Below, piece by piece: positions 6,403-16,099 of a stretch of DNA of 64,000 nt. The notes under the pieces were generated by a model. That model worked only from the letters and a program-made list of their open reading frames with translations. It was not told where the DNA came from and searched no databases. The position numbers and the translations under genes were made by a program. This DNA comes from Methylocystaceae bacterium. Its GTDB lineage: Bacteria; Pseudomonadota; Alphaproteobacteria; Rhodospirillales; Terasakiellaceae. The number at the start of each line of letters is the position of its first letter. Within the stretch, counting starts at the first letter, position 1. The DNA lies in the NCBI GenBank assembly GCA_013373205.1, contig JABXIG010000003.1, forward strand, positions 744,001-808,000, given 5' to 3'.

Positions 6403-7494
6403 ATGTTTAATGATTGCCTGAACGGACTGCGTGTTCTTGACTTATCCCAATATATCCCGGGTCCGTTTGCGACCATGACATTGGGGGATCTGGGGGCAGA
6501 AGTCATCAAGATTGAACCACCGTTTGGGGATCCCATGCGTACAGCATTTATGACGGCAGAAGATGGTTTATCTCCGCTTTACAAGCAATTAAATGCCGGC
6601 AAGACGGTTATTAAACTGGATTTAAAATCCGATGAAGGCAAAGCAGCTTTTACAAAATTGGTTGAAAAGTCGGATGTTGTCTTGGAATCTTTTCGCCCCG
6701 GTGTAATGGCGCGACTTGGTTTTGGGCCGGATGATCTGCAGAAAATAAATCCTAAACTAATCCATTGCGCTTTATCTGGTTTTGGTCAAACAGGACCTTA
6801 TGGTCAGGTCGCGGGCCATGATATGACCTACGTTGCCTTGACAGGGGCTTTGTCGCAAACAGGTCATGCTGAAACGGGGCCTGTACCTATCTTTCCGCCT
6901 ATGGCAGATCACAGCGGGGCGATGCAGGCGGTCAATAGTATTTTGGCGGCATTGTTTAGACGGGAACGTACGGGCAAAGGGGCATTTATTGATGTGTCAT
7001 TGTTTGAAGCGGCCCTGAGTTGGAATTATCTCAGTTTAACACCAGCCCATCATGGGACGGTGGATGCCTGTGGGCGAGGGGAGCTGAGCGGGGCGGCCGC
7101 CTGGTACAATATTTATGAGACAAAAGACGGGCGGTTCTTTGCCTTTGCCCCCATCGAGCCCAAGTTCTGGCAGAATTTCTGCAAAGCTTTAGGTCGTGAA
7201 GATTTGATTGAACGTCAAAATGAGCCGTTGCCACAGGATAATCTGATCGCAACACTGCGTGATTTGTTTAAGGCTGAAACCTTGGACCATTGGGCTGGTG
7301 TTTTATTGCCAGCTGATTGTTGTATGGAACCAATTCATACACCAGATGAGGTTCTTGATCATCCACATGTGAAAGAACGTCAGATCGCATCAGGGACTGA
7401 AATTCGTTACCCTGCATGGGTCGATGGTCAGCCCCCATCTGCGCGAAAAACAATGATTGAAATGGATGCGGCTGATCTGATCGCAGAGCTATAA
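6403..7494 (+). CDS. CaiB/BaiF (family III) CoA-transferase or acyl-CoA racemase
   Basis: Members of this family transfer CoA between carboxylic acids or racemise 2-methylacyl-CoA through a covalent aspartyl intermediate. The N-terminus (GLRVLDLSQYIPGPFATMTL, then LGAEVIKIEPP) is typical, followed by SFRPGVMARLG. MADHSGAMQA holds the expected catalytic Asp. The product is 363 residues, a normal length. ATG 6403 is preferred over ATG 6388 because 6388 lies in the terminator hairpin; neither has a clear ribosome site. Alpha-methylacyl-CoA racemase is the closest functional guess, but the substrate cannot be read from sequence. Confidence 0.85.
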   Translation: MFNDCLNGLRVLDLSQYIPGPFATMTLGDLGAEVIKIEPPFGDPMRTAFMTAEDGLSPLYKQLNAGKTVIKLDLKSDEGKAAFTKLVEKSDVVLESFRPGVMARLGFGPDDLQKINPKLIHCALSGFGQTGPYGQVAGHDMTYVALTGALSQTGHAETGPVPIFPPMADHSGAMQAVNSILAALFRRERTGKGAFIDVSLFEAALSWNYLSLTPAHHGTVDACGRGELSGAAAWYNIYETKDGRFFAFAPIEPKFWQNFCKALGREDLIERQNEPLPQDNLIATLRDLFKAETLDHWAGVLLPADCCMEPIHTPDEVLDHPHVKERQIASGTEIRYPAWVDGQPPSARKTMIEMDAADLIAEL

Positions 7495-7497
7495 AGA

Positions 7498-7893
7498 TTA
7501 TTGTTTCGGAAGAACTTTAGCACAATGCTGGCAATGTATATCATCACTGAAGATATGCAATTGTGCCCATTGGCGCGTTTCTAAAACAGCAACGCTAGGC
7601 GGCATGGAGTCACCAAAGCTGGACAGCGTATTTCGCAAATCGATCAGGCGCTGTAAAATATCGTGGGGATAAATATGGGGCTCGCAGTTATGCTTGGCCT
7701 GACATTCACTTTTGCACAGCAGATAGGGTTCAATATCTTCCATCAACTGATCAATTTTTGCGAGGATTTCGTTTAATGGTTTACGGCACGCCAATTCTTC
7801 GCAGATTTCATCGACATATTTAGCAATCAACGGGTGGCCCTGTTTAATAAAGGGCACGTTTGAGGAAAGTATCAGGTCTGCTGCAAAGGTCAT
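7498..7893 (-). CDS. Cys-rich hypothetical protein
   Basis: This is a 131-residue soluble protein with no family I recognise. It is largely helical in appearance, with Cys/His clusters: CKSECQAKHNCEPH in the middle, and CQHC near the C-terminus, which suggest a metal site. The start is well supported by GGAGAG six bases before the ATG on the minus strand. It converges on the CoA-transferase gene with only 3 bp between the stops. Confidence 0.65.
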   Translation of the reverse strand: MTFAADLILSSNVPFIKQGHPLIAKYVDEICEELACRKPLNEILAKIDQLMEDIEPYLLCKSECQAKHNCEPHIYPHDILQRLIDLRNTLSSFGDSMPPSVAVLETRQWAQLHIFSDDIHCQHCAKVLPKQ

Positions 7894-7993: not shown

Positions 7994-9142
7994 TTACTTT
8001 TTATAAGGCGAAAGGCTTGAAAGTTCCGCCATTTCTAATTCATTAACCCGTTGGTCATGATCCAGGAAATCTTTGACAGCATTGGCAAAATTAGGATCAG
8101 CAATCCAATGGGCGCTATAGGTTCTGACAGGAAGATAGCCGCGTTGGATTTTATGCTGGCCTTGTGCACCAGCTTCAACCCGTTTCAGGTTATTTTTTAT
8201 GGCAAAATCAATGGCTTGATAATAACAGGCTTCAAAATGTAAGAATTTAAAATCTGTCAGGCATCCCCAATATCGGCCATATAAGGTTTGATTCCCTTTT
8301 AGATTCAAGGCCCCGGCGACAATCTTACCCCCATATTGGGCAAGAACTAAAATAATTTGATCCCCCAGTCGTTGTCCCAGTAAACTGAAAAACTCACGGT
8401 TGAGGTACGCATGTCCCCATTTGCGTCCGGAGGTATCAAGATAGAAATTGTAAAAAGCATCCCAATGGGTTTCGGTGATTTCCTGCCCGCTTAAGGTTAG
8501 GATTTCTATGCCGCTTTCCTGAACTTTGGCCCGTTCTTTCCGGATAGTCTTGCGTTTGCGCGAGGAGAGGGCCTCAAGAAAATCGTCAAAGCTGCCATAA
8601 TTATCATTGGTCCAATGGTATTGATGACCAATTCGTCCCATAAAACCAAGGTCTTGGGCAAGGTGCCATTCCTGTTCGGTAGCAAAGGTAATATGCAAAC
8701 TGGAGATCTGCAGGTCTTGTGCGCGTTTAATCAGGCCAATCAGCAAATCTTTTTGACAATCTGGATGGGCTTGTGGGGCTAACAATAAGCGGTGCCCTGT
8801 GACCGGGGTAAAGGGGATTGCACATTGTAGTTTGGGATAATAGCGCCCGCCGGCACGTTCATAGGCATCAGCCCAGGACCAGTCAAAAACATATTCGCCG
8901 TACGAATGGCCTTTTAGATAACAGGGGCTACAGGCAAGAACCTGTCCCAGATCATCACGCAGCACAAGATGTTGTGCCATCCATCCGCTTTTGGCAATGG
9001 TACATTGACTATCCTCAAGCGCGCTTAAGAATTCATGGCGTGCAAAAGGTTCATCCGCCCCGACGCAGTTATTCCAGTCGTCAGCATGGATATCACTGAT
9101 TTTTTCGATAACGTCAATTTTATGTAAATTCGAAGATGCCAT
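7994..9142 (-). CDS. FemAB-like GNAT family acyltransferase (COG3146/DUF482 type)
   Basis: The 382-residue protein resembles the DUF482/COG3146 group, often labelled 'peptidoglycan biosynthesis/recognition' and distantly related to FemAB amino-acyl transferases. Recognisable segments are ADEPFARHEFLSALEDS near the start, SSRKRKTIRKERAKV in the middle, and the GNAT-like core (GALNLKGNQTLYGRYWGC then FEACYYQAIDFAI). ATG 9142 is the usual family start; it lies inside the end of the ridA-like gene, giving a 23-bp overlap and suggesting translational coupling. No signal peptide is seen, so it is cytoplasmic. The substrate is unknown. Confidence 0.8.
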   Translation of the reverse strand: MASSNLHKIDVIEKISDIHADDWNNCVGADEPFARHEFLSALEDSQCTIAKSGWMAQHLVLRDDLGQVLACSPCYLKGHSYGEYVFDWSWADAYERAGGRYYPKLQCAIPFTPVTGHRLLLAPQAHPDCQKDLLIGLIKRAQDLQISSLHITFATEQEWHLAQDLGFMGRIGHQYHWTNDNYGSFDDFLEALSSRKRKTIRKERAKVQESGIEILTLSGQEITETHWDAFYNFYLDTSGRKWGHAYLNREFFSLLGQRLGDQIILVLAQYGGKIVAGALNLKGNQTLYGRYWGCLTDFKFLHFEACYYQAIDFAIKNNLKRVEAGAQGQHKIQRGYLPVRTYSAHWIADPNFANAVKDFLDHDQRVNELEMAELSSLSPYKK

Positions 9143-9587
9143 CAATTTCAACGCAAATGCCAAGGGGCAGGGCGGCAACGCCAACGGCAGAACGGGTATG
9201 TTTGCCCCTTTCTCCAAAGACTTCAACCATCAGATCAGATGCACCGTTTAACACTTTAGGTTGTTCGGTAAATTCAGGTGTAGAGTTCACGAACCCGCCA
9301 AGTTTAATCACCCGAGTGATACGATCAAGGTCACCGTCAAGGGCGGCACGAACCTGTGAAATCAGATTAAGCCCACACAAACGTGCGGCCGCCATTCCGT
9401 CTTCTACATTCAGGCTTTCACCAATGCGGCCAATGTATTTTAATTCCCCATCCAACATAGTGATCTGGCCGGAAACAAAGATTTGATTGCCCGTGATCAG
9501 GGTTGGGACATAGTTGCCCACGGCTGCATTGGCATTGGGAAGGGTGATGCCCAATTCGGCCAAACGTGTGTCAATTTTTCCTGCCAT
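9120..9587 (-). CDS. RidA family protein (YjgF/YER057c/UK114)
   Basis: RidA proteins hydrolyse reactive enamine/imine intermediates released by PLP enzymes. The 155-residue product shows the N-terminal block (ITGNQIFVSGQIT) and the C-terminal signature with the imine-site Arg (HTRSAVGVAALPLGICVEID). At 155 residues it is longer than E. coli RidA (about 128), as in other Rid subfamilies. It is the first gene of a two-gene unit with the FemAB-like gene. Confidence 0.9.
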   Translation of the reverse strand: MAGKIDTRLAELGITLPNANAAVGNYVPTLITGNQIFVSGQITMLDGELKYIGRIGESLNVEDGMAAARLCGLNLISQVRAALDGDLDRITRVIKLGGFVNSTPEFTEQPKVLNGASDLMVEVFGERGKHTRSAVGVAALPLGICVEIDGIFEFT

Positions 9588-13392: not shown

Positions 13393-13566
13393 TGTGCCCC
13401 TGATGCCTCTTTCATAAAAATTAGCGGCGGAAATAACGAAAAATTTTTTATAATTTGCCCTCACCCCTCCTGGACCATGCATCTATATACGGCGTGCTCT
13501 CCTTCAGTTGGGGCACAAGATGTAGAACACTTTTGAAAAGCTATGACAAGGTACTACGAAAGTATA

Positions 13567-13594: not shown

Positions 13595-13641
13595 TTGCTA
13601 TCGTAAGTACTCTGCCGATTCCCGTTCACGTTAGCTTGTGG

Positions 13642-13682
13642 AAAAAAAATTATAAAAAAAAAAGACTTGAAACGGTCTTTTT
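13642..13682 (-). terminator. Terminator-like hairpin inside the nrdJ leader
   Basis: On the minus strand an 8-bp stem AAAAAGAC/GTCTTTTT (13675-13682 with 13659-13666) has an 8-nt loop and runs into ten consecutive T in all, then another T-rich block to 13642. It lies between the candidate NrdR-box promoter and nrdJ, so it may attenuate readthrough. Only three stem pairs are GC-containing, so strength is uncertain. Confidence 0.4.
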
Positions 13683-13694
13683 AGCTGAAAATCT

Positions 13695-13742
13695 CCCCAA
13701 CCCATTGTGTTACCTTGATCTTATCTACACAAGGTCTAGTGG
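13695..13742 (-). promoter_or_regulatory. Two candidate NrdR boxes over a promoter for nrdJ
   Basis: Two 16-mers resemble the NrdR consensus acaCwAtATaTwGtgt: CCCCAACCCATTGTGT at 13695-13710 (11 of 16) and, on the minus strand, CCACTAGACCTTGTGT at 13727-13742 (12 of 16). Their starts are 32 bp apart, about three helical turns, the spacing typical of NrdR box pairs. On the minus strand the boxes overlap a promoter-like TTGTGT-N17-CACAAT. TTATCTACA at 13721-13729 also differs from a DnaA box by one base. The distance to the nrdJ start is about 300 bp. Confidence 0.5.
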
Positions 13743-14032
13743 GTGAGGGGGCTATCGGTGTAAAGTTAGGAAAAACCTAATGAGAATCCAATTTTTCCCC
13801 TCATTGTGACCAAATTTTAGGCACAGTTATGAGGCTTTTTGATCGCAGAATCGATGGACTGTCTTTGAGAAGTCAATTTCATCATTACAATAGTTATAAA
13901 TTGGCTTTGGGGGGATTGAGAACTCGTGTTATAGAATACATAAGTCTAAAAAATAAATTATATCCAGCCGGGAGCCATATGTGTTGCAGCCAACCTTTTT
14001 TAAGGGCATTTGCATGTGGTTGAATAGAGTCA
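13743..14032. other. Intergenic region between nrdJ control region and the EAL gene
   Basis: I see no convincing gene in this 290-bp stretch. A short inverted repeat TTAGG-AAAAA-CCTAA starts at 13766. An open frame at 13829-14023 has no ribosome site and no recognisable product. The promoter of the downstream PAS-EAL gene presumably lies here, but I cannot place it. Confidence 0.5.
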
Positions 14033-16099
14033 GTGATTAAAGAAACGCCTAATCAAAAAAAGGTGTTCGACGCATTTATCAATGACCTGAATGAAGCTGC
14101 TATTCTAACGGATAGGGCTCATATGGTTGTTGCGCTCAGTAAGGAAGCCTTAAACCTTCTGTCTATGGAGGGTGAGTCTTTCCTATTGGGGCGCCATGTC
14201 GGTTGTGTGTTTGATCAACATGCAAAAAATTGGCCTGTGGCAGTCGGAACACGTCAGGAAATTACCCTGAAAACACGTTATCAGCGTCAATTGGATGTCG
14301 AGCTAAGCCTGAGCCAAATAAGCTTGGCGGGCGAAGAATATGAGCTTGGCCTCTTGCGAGATCTCACCGAGATAAGAAAACTACAAACAGATTTAAATCA
14401 GGCGGAAAACCGTTTGGATGATATGATGGGTAATCTGCCTGTGACGTTATTCCAAATGAAGCTGTTGGAAAATGGCAGCTTGTCATTTCCTTATATCAGC
14501 AACGGGGTGGCAAAACTGATCGGGCTTGATTGTGAACAGTTTCAGGATAATCCCGAGGCTTTCTTTGCCATGTTGGCTGCGCGCGATCAGGTTAAGCTGT
14601 TACGTCGGGTCAAAAAAGCTGCCTTGCAGGAAGATGTGCTGGATGAAGAAATTTGTTTGAACGTAACAGCGCAACACAAAATATGGTTACGGATGTTTGC
14701 CAACCCGCGCCCCTGTGATGAAACCCATGTGCTTTGGGATGGGGCGGTAATTGATGTTACCGGGCAGCATCTGCTTGATGAACGGCTGCATTATCTAGCC
14801 TATCATGATGAAAATACAAAAATGCCAAACCGTCTGGCATTGGAAGAATATCTTCAAAGTCTGTTTAAAAACGATCCACCACAGACCTTTGCTGTGATGG
14901 CCCTTGCGATTGATCGCTTAGATTTGGTGAATGAGACTTTGGGCGGGGAAACGGCGAGCTATCTGGTGCAGACCATTGCCAATCATCTAACACAGGCAAT
15001 GGCCCAGAAAGATGTCTATATCGCGCATTTGCGGGCGGAGAATTTCTGCATCGTTGTCCCCAATGTCAATGATGAACATGATGTTGCAGGTTTGGCGCAA
15101 CGCCTTCTGGCAACAATGAAAATTCCATTTTCCGTCGGTACCCGTCGCTTAGATGTCAGTGTATCAATTGGGATTAGTATGTCTAATCGCGACGGTGATT
15201 GTGCAGAAAATCTAATTATGAATGCAGATACGGCGTTGCGCCGGGCACTGACGACTTCGCCTGGTGGATATCGCTTTTATGTAGAAGAAATGAATACGCG
15301 GGCTTTGCGGGTTCTGGCGTATGAAAATAGATTACGAAAAGCTTTGATCGCGCGAGAATTTGTGCCTTTCTTCCAGCCATTGATTGATGTGAAAAGTGGT
15401 GAAATTGCCGGGATGGAAGCTTTGGTGCGTTGGCAACATCCACGACTGGGGCTTGTCAGTCCGGCTGAATTTATCCCCGTTGCAGAAGAAGCGGGTCTGA
15501 TTGGGGAATTATGTCATCAAGTCCTGTTCGAAGCATGCAATACGGTCAAAGGTTGGATTGACAAGGGCTATAATCCAGTACCGCTGGCAGTCAATATATC
15601 CTGGCGCCAGTTTGTCCAGCCGGAACGTCTGATGGTCTTGATGAATGAGGTTTTACAGGAAACCGGATTACCACCAGAACTTCTGGAATTGGAGTTGACG
15701 GAAAGTTCTGTGATGGAAGAACCCGATTCTGCCATCCGGACGTTAAATGATCTGCGTAATTTCGGGGTTATGGCCTCTATCGATGATTTTGGGACGGGGT
15801 ATTCTTCCTTATCTTATTTGAAAAAATTACCGATTTCCAAATTGAAGATTGATCGTGCCTTTATTCATGATGTGAATGAAAATGAACGTGATGCGGCCAT
15901 TGTCGATGCCATCATCATGTTAGCGCGTGCCTTGGGTTTGAAGACGGTTGCCGAAGGGATTGAAACGCCAGAGCAATACGAATACCTGAAAGAAAAAGGC
16001 TGTGATCTGGCACAGGGGTTCTATTTCAGTCGCCCTGTCCCTGCTGCGGAAATGGAAAAAATGATAGCTCAGGGCGTATTTTATCAGAAACAGCCGTGA
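14033..16099 (+). CDS. PAS-GGDEF(degenerate)-EAL cyclic-di-GMP phosphodiesterase
   Basis: The 688-residue cytoplasmic protein has two PAS-like regions (about 15-115 and 125-245), a GGDEF-fold domain (about 250-420) and an EAL domain (about 430-680). The GGDEF signature is replaced by RAENF at 334-338, so cyclase activity is unlikely. The EAL domain keeps E462-A463-L464, the DDFGTG loop at 584-589 and KIDR, so it should hydrolyse c-di-GMP, perhaps with the dead GGDEF sensing GTP. No membrane segment is seen. The start is GTG 14033 with only a weak ribosome site; the next in-frame Met is residue 31. It is a single gene. Confidence 0.88.
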   Translation: MIKETPNQKKVFDAFINDLNEAAILTDRAHMVVALSKEALNLLSMEGESFLLGRHVGCVFDQHAKNWPVAVGTRQEITLKTRYQRQLDVELSLSQISLAGEEYELGLLRDLTEIRKLQTDLNQAENRLDDMMGNLPVTLFQMKLLENGSLSFPYISNGVAKLIGLDCEQFQDNPEAFFAMLAARDQVKLLRRVKKAALQEDVLDEEICLNVTAQHKIWLRMFANPRPCDETHVLWDGAVIDVTGQHLLDERLHYLAYHDENTKMPNRLALEEYLQSLFKNDPPQTFAVMALAIDRLDLVNETLGGETASYLVQTIANHLTQAMAQKDVYIAHLRAENFCIVVPNVNDEHDVAGLAQRLLATMKIPFSVGTRRLDVSVSIGISMSNRDGDCAENLIMNADTALRRALTTSPGGYRFYVEEMNTRALRVLAYENRLRKALIAREFVPFFQPLIDVKSGEIAGMEALVRWQHPRLGLVSPAEFIPVAEEAGLIGELCHQVLFEACNTVKGWIDKGYNPVPLAVNISWRQFVQPERLMVLMNEVLQETGLPPELLELELTESSVMEEPDSAIRTLNDLRNFGVMASIDDFGTGYSSLSYLKKLPISKLKIDRAFIHDVNENERDAAIVDAIIMLARALGLKTVAEGIETPEQYEYLKEKGCDLAQGFYFSRPVPAAEMEKMIAQGVFYQKQP

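Follow-up and report, generated by a model that had tools for sequence, protein, structure and literature searches.

Two NrdR-like 16-mers lie upstream of nrdJ, a class II ribonucleotide reductase gene, their starts 32 bp apart. NrdR is the usual repressor by which bacteria control the making of DNA precursors. The question raised by this locus is whether they form an operator of nrdJ and, if so, how an operator about 300 bp from the gene might act. The stretch analyzed, referred to as the window, comprises 64,000 nucleotides, and the features discussed below are collected in Table 1.

Table 1. Features of the nrdJ control region and of its stand-alone copy (window positions unless stated)
Feature	Position	Strand	Remarks
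nrdJ, class II (B12-dependent) ribonucleotide reductase, 1220 aa	9730..13392	-	NCBIfam PRK07562, 2194 bits (cut-off 1737)
Weak partner of proximal box	13480..13495	-	4.6 bits; spacing 33 bp in 5/6 genomes, 31 in one
Proximal NrdR box (putative), GTTCTACATCTTGTGC	13513..13528	-	11.6 bits; overlaps -10; 14/16 columns invariant in 6/6
Predicted nrdJ promoter	13521..13549	-	-35 TTGTCA 13544-13549; 17-bp spacer; TG-N 13527-13529; -10 TCTACA 13521-13526
TACT-N5-AGTA dyad, possible activator site	13552..13564	.	Just upstream of -35, in block CTATACTTTSGTAGTA
GANTC site 3, block GGAATCGGC	13617..13621	.	6/6 genomes and paralogous copy
T-rich tract, TTTTTTTTTTATAATTTTTTTTCC on - strand	13642..13663	.	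T-rich in 6/6 genomes and paralogous copy
Distal NrdR box (putative), downstream member	13695..13710	-	9.0 bits; partner 32 bp away
Distal NrdR box (putative), upstream member	13727..13742	-	14.4 bits; key C, A, T, G invariant in 6/6
TTAGG-N5-CCTAA dyad beside GANTC site 2	13767..13781	.	CCTA in 6/6, AGG in 5/6 genomes
GANTC site 2, block GATTCTC	13784..13788	.	6/6 genomes and paralogous copy
GANTC (CcrM-type) site 1	13848..13852	.	Matching places in 6/6 genomes and paralogous copy
Stand-alone copy, 24-codon ORF and terminator-like hairpin	G000:C59:447200-447850 (L003 ~7200-7850)	-	Outside window

The distal box pair

Scored against the NrdR consensus acaCwAtATaTwGtgt, the downstream box (CCCCAACCCATTGTGT) matches at 11/16 positions and the upstream box (ACACAAGGTCTAGTGG) at 12/16. 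The letters thereby bear out the preliminary description in its central observation. The only such 11+12 combination at 31–33 bp within the 64-kb window is this one, 13695/13727; none was found in the window at any other spacing from 20 to 60, and at 31–33 bp the window, shuffled 20 times, had on average 0.0 pairs.

The start codon of nrdJ was placed at ATG 13392, where MRINRHF aligned with five congeners. The pair lies 303–350 bp upstream of it, and the earlier figure of about 300 bp was correct. This distance had been called unusual, but it is ordinary. The pairs of other nrdJ loci (76 of 80) have a median position of -230 from the ATG and range from -106 to -471, and the nrdA pair of the same genus is 266–371 bp upstream of the likely start in all six genomes.

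So that scoring would not depend on the consensus alone, a palindromic matrix was trained on 76 of the 80 upstream regions in the comparison set (the 80 best nrdJ loci of other genera, kept out of 594 relatives found), with spacings of 31 (n = 49), 32 (n = 22) and 33 bp (n = 5). The distal pair ranked first in the window with 23.3 bits, followed by a pair at 13480/13513, at the predicted nrdJ promoter, with 16.2 bits. The own-genome scan covered 479 kb, made up of the window, twenty 20-kb stretches and L003. Here too the distal pair came first, a paralogous copy of the region second (22.0 bits) and a pair of 17.2 bits third. The consensus itself, applied to 500-bp upstream regions, found a pair of at least 22/32 at 30–34 bp in 38 of the 80, compared with about 5 in 1600 shuffles as estimated from the shuffle means. 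Counts made in the window, in the own genome and with the consensus are out of sample. Pair counts among the 80 loci are in sample, as the same loci trained the matrix; on this footing a pair of at least 14 bits was present in 72 of 80, against 0.2 in shuffles.

Chance resemblance to NrdR boxes is hardly credible as an explanation. Single near-consensus boxes are indeed common (127 places at two mismatches or fewer), and 23 control spacings over the 479 kb yielded three pairs of at least 20 bits, the best with 21.0. The reversed control pattern, however, matched at 181 places, and the pair is unique in the window, conserved in 6/6 genomes and the best of the 479 kb. The genome-wide single-box scan was uninformative. 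The refuting conditions named in the preliminary description had a mixed outcome: single boxes do turn up elsewhere, and just one other pair of at least 22 bits was found in the 479 kb, beside non-nrd genes but in the paralogous control region. Among single NrdR-like boxes in the window, the strongest (GCACAAGATGTTGTGC, 8962–8977, 16.4 bits) is inside the ORF at 7994–9226 and outside any top pair; it is probably a chance match.

Conservation was assessed by aligning the nrdJ upstream regions of the own genome and five congeners. The key palindrome positions C, A, T and G are invariant in both distal boxes, the spacing is 32 bp in 6/6 genomes and the pair scores range from 18.6 to 23.3 bits. 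Invariant columns number 7/16 in the upstream box, 12/16 in the downstream box and 3/16 between them. The whole stretch 13799–13393 is conserved (141 of 407 columns invariant, compared with 18 of 233 in the adjoining 14032–13800), and the 7/16 of the upstream box is not much above its surroundings. NrdR is encoded in the own genome (TIGR00244, 178 bits, G000:C59:839373-839813). As a positive control, the class I nrdA genes of the genus showed pairs 33 bp apart in 6/6 genomes, with 24.9–28.9 bits, lying over TTGACA-N17-CAATAT in the nrdA sequences read.

The region thus combines two 16-bp palindromic boxes (23.3 bits by the matrix built on other genera) at about three helical turns (31–33 bp; 32 bp in the six genomes and in the paralogous copy), a position upstream of a ribonucleotide reductase gene and an nrdR gene in the same genome. 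Because of the top matrix rank, the conservation in the genus, the fixed spacing and the encoded NrdR, the pair very probably serves nrdJ as an NrdR operator. Neither distal box matches the pattern C.[AT].A[AT].[AT].G in either orientation; the proximal box at 13513 alone of the four boxes does. This pattern, given in the methods of PMC12051234, is a survey filter and not a proven requirement for NrdR boxes, and according to passages of PMC12176259 box 2 of E. coli nrdAB likewise has a non-canonical center.

Two further elements had been described at the pair. A promoter-like TTGTGT-N17-CACAAT is present in the window, but is not conserved in the five congeners: its first hexamer reads TAGTGC, TAGTGG, TAGTAG, TGGTAG and TAGTAG, and its second is retained solely as part of the NrdR half-site ACACAA. 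The near-DnaA box TTATCTACA at 13721, between the boxes, is one of 22 near-DnaA 9-mers in the window (at most one mismatch, both orientations), and a TTATCCACA-like site is not conserved in the congeners. Both readings were dropped as neither element is conserved. An NrdR pair serving class II nrdJ is accordingly what stands of the preliminary description, without the overlapping promoter, the DnaA box or the odd distance.

The inverted letters might instead fold into a hairpin of the nrdJ leader RNA, acting as a riboswitch or attenuator, and an imperfect inverted repeat, CCCCAACCCA...TGGGTGAGGGG, does flank the boxes. This is highly improbable. The outer arms of the repeat are not conserved, folding was barely better than that of shuffles (z = -1.18 and -0.40), and Rfam gave no match at the gathering threshold, the sole sub-threshold match being ssnA at 13956–13999. 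Rfam (including L002, L005 and L008) and folding gave nothing for nrdJ, and the RNA-structure reading was rejected.

Some observations were made on nrdA as well. Its long leader, from the NrdR pair to the gene (L113, L106, L107, L108, L110, L111), contains, by eye, a hairpin-like stretch GACCGCC...GGCGGTC and a GAATC site; the leaders of L113 and L110, searched against Rfam, gave no match. This genome also carries another class I nrdA (L109 1060–3036, G000:C65), which lies behind a cobalamin riboswitch (801–1000, 122.7 bits). An NrdR-like pair with a spacing of 33 bp (23.2 bits) accompanies it as well, and it encodes a B12-independent reductase that is probably shut off by B12.

Predicted promoter, proximal pair and a possible loop

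The best-conserved promoter-like element of the region, TTGNNA-N17-TCTACA with TGN before the -10 (an extended -10), is located downstream of the distal pair, and its 17-bp spacer is constant in the alignment of 6/6 genomes. Its hexamers are weak and a generic consensus scan did not report it. Transcription of nrdJ would be expected to start near 13514, which would place the distal pair some 180–230 bp upstream of the likely start. The preliminary description had held that a start only downstream of 13690 would speak against the boxes. The best promoter-like element does lie there; the pair is read here as a distal operator.

The proximal box, absent from the preliminary description, overlaps the -10 of this predicted promoter, and its key palindrome positions are invariant in 6/6 genomes. 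The proximal pair was found in 6/6 genomes with 15.8–19.5 bits; its outer box is weak and varies, with two of its four key positions differing among the six genomes. Passages of PMC4409342 describe an overlap of NrdR box 1 with the -10 in P. aeruginosa, and TTGAC stands 17–18 bp upstream of the NrdR pair in 22 of 74 other nrdJ loci. The layout here resembles these promoters, although the -35 begins 21 bp before the box, compared with 17–18 bp elsewhere.

The TACT-N5-AGTA dyad is exact in three of the five congeners and in both own-genome copies, with one and two mismatches in the other two congeners. The TTAGG-N5-CCTAA dyad is lost in the paralogous copy. No binder could be named for either dyad. 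The T-tract is perhaps bent or flexible DNA.

From the observed letters, conservation, fixed spacing and NrdR gene we infer NrdR binding at the two pairs, the start site and repression, possibly with a loop. Of two NrdR operators serving nrdJ, the stretch 13695–13742 would then be the distal one, a reading to which we give a probability of roughly 80%. NrdR with dATP and ATP binds DNA as a tetramer, with two boxes per tetramer, and represses ribonucleotide reductase genes (PMC9110341, in passages). One tetramer would occupy the proximal pair and cover the -10 and the start of the predicted promoter; a second would sit on the distal pair, about 214 bp further upstream. The distal tetramer would most likely make repression stronger or tune it, perhaps through a loop aided by the intervening T-tract. 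It may additionally block an activator at the adjoining GANTC and dyad sites.

The pair-to-pair distance is 212–214 bp in five genomes and 224 bp in the sixth, longer by about one helical turn; the sixth genome has a 10–11-bp insertion within the T-tract. This is compatible with helical phasing, though it is a single event. Of the 80 other nrdJ upstream regions, 8 carry two pairs of at least 14 bits that are separated by 100 bp or more, compared with 0.2 expected. Their distances, 171–280 bp, showed no common helical phase when judged by hand across these eight loci. A distal and a proximal NrdR pair are also described for L. monocytogenes nrdAB in section 2.1 of PMC12051234. Distal and proximal pairs together would offer a clean natural test case for NrdR action at a distance.

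Alternatively, the distal pair might itself be the core promoter-operator of nrdJ. Transcription would then start at about 13690–13720 and give a leader of roughly 300 nt, and the block at 13480–13549 would be another promoter or an element of the leader. We regard this as possible but distinctly the less probable arrangement. The class-wide median position of the pairs is consistent with it. So are the TTGAC letters near pairs elsewhere, both those 17–18 bp upstream and those 41–44 bp downstream of the pair's start (13 of 74 loci); TTGGGG/TTGCGG-like letters stand at about +42 of the distal pair. GANTC sites that precede the distal pair by 46 and 110 bp, a setting shared with other nrdJ pairs, point the same way. 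Nevertheless, no -35/-10 couple of constant spacing is conserved around the distal pair, TTGTGT having become TAGTGN or TNGTAG in the congeners, whereas the downstream promoter keeps its 17-bp spacer and TGN-TCTACA in 6/6 genomes.

GANTC sites and a stand-alone copy

Of the GANTC sites, site 2 precedes the distal pair by 46 bp and site 1 by 110 bp. Among 80 other nrdJ loci, GANTC is depleted in the coding sequence (334 observed, 823 expected) and not depleted upstream (169 observed, 143 expected). The interval 20–115 bp upstream of the NrdR pair, with bounds chosen after the histogram was seen, holds 68 GANTC sites in 48 of 74 other nrdJ loci; these loci are related and do not represent independent events. 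Permuting the pair positions among loci gave a mean of 38.6 sites and a maximum of 57 in 2000 permutations, and nine other short motifs gave 3–30 sites in the same interval.

A GcrA Pfam match was obtained in 6/6 genomes, with a model that also rang in the Sulfolobus control. The own genome encodes a nearly full-length CcrM-like protein of 647 bits, which does not reach the Caulobacter equivalog cut-off of 830. Caulobacter nrdA carries a GANTC motif and is modestly lower in a ccrM deletion (PMC3973325, in passages). It speaks against the GANTC reading that the main texts of three other GcrA/CcrM papers (PMC7987155, PMC3667746, PMC11514494) contain no words beginning with 'nrd'. The open-access literature searched, with its partial coverage, yielded no description of a GANTC–NrdR association at nrdJ. 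Were the association functional, it would link replication-coupled methylation directly to dNTP feedback on a B12-dependent reductase.

The paralogous copy of the region is found in the own genome at C59:447484-447653. The copied stretch, 73% identical, is bounded by the downstream distal box and the dyad ahead of the -35; by alignment the likeness reaches the upstream distal box and GATTCTC. The copy retains both distal boxes at 32 bp (22.0 bits) together with the T-tract, three GANTC sites and CTATACTTTCGTAGTA. Its proximal NrdR box is disrupted. The copy is 51–57% identical to the nrdJ regions, which are 55–67% identical among themselves. Since it is as far from the nrdJ regions as these are from one another, or further, the copy is not recent.

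The copy is flanked on one side by the end of an AcrB-type pump gene and on the other by that of phaC, as identified by Pfam. It is followed by two predicted hairpins, a GGAG resembling a ribosome-binding site, an ORF of 24 codons (MSSQMMLHIIYIVIKFYIEWLFSV) and a further hairpin of terminator-like form, and the RNA of this stretch is more stably folded than every one of 100 shuffles (z = -4.5). A DNA search found no second copy in the five congeners, and in the 1500 bp downstream of their phaC there was no pair of at least 12 bits. Within 15 kb around the copy no convincing nrdJ remnant was found (best E = 0.43). A homolog of the ORF was sought among 60 relatives; one weak match was returned (E = 0.58, G002), at a locus without an NrdR pair of at least 12 bits, and was rejected.

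The stand-alone copy also bears on the notion that the boxes act not on nrdJ but on the c-di-GMP (GGDEF-EAL) gene that diverges from it at 14033. The pair does sit in the intergenic region common to both genes, and TTGTGT is conserved when read on the plus strand. The copy, however, retains the pair without a convincing divergent gene, the one frame there being a 105-aa, TTG-started one at a distance of about 480 bp, which overlaps phaC in antisense orientation, and such pairs also occur at nrdJ loci of other genera. An operator of the divergent gene is very unlikely.

The second pair at 13480/13513 over the predicted promoter, the clustering of GANTC sites and the stand-alone copy are newly found here. 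The control region is composite and more elaborate than first described, and its functions are inferred throughout. A speculative extension, doubtful as a whole, would make it a composite switch of alphaproteobacterial nrdJ that couples the cell cycle to the dNTP pool, in which CcrM-methylated GANTC sites read by GcrA lie just upstream of NrdR operators. A two-operator loop of about 20 helical turns would form in some lineages, including this one, and in this species the distal half would have been copied as the driver of a short structured transcript with a 24-codon ORF, or as an NrdR decoy.

Comparison with known systems

The boxes are an ordinary kind of repressor site, and their setting is of more interest than the boxes themselves. 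As described in passages of PMC12176259 and PMC9110341, the NrdR operators of E. coli nrdHIEF and nrdDG and of S. coelicolor nrdRJ likewise consist of two palindromic boxes, spaced by some three helical turns, before a ribonucleotide reductase gene, with nrdR in the genome. The present pair differs in its non-canonical box centers and in its position about 180–230 bp upstream of the predicted start.

In L. monocytogenes nrdAB (PMC12051234, section 2.1) the four boxes form two pairs, of which one covers the promoter and the other lies upstream. That is a class I operon of a member of the Bacillota, whereas the gene here is a class II nrdJ of an alphaproteobacterium, with pairs about 214 bp apart and a weak proximal partner. 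Caulobacter nrdA, as covered in passages of PMC3973325, is similar in being a ribonucleotide reductase gene with conserved CcrM-type sites in its promoter region. It is a class I gene, the change is modest and NrdR boxes are not part of the account; here, three conserved GANTC sites stand beside the NrdR pairs of a class II nrdJ.
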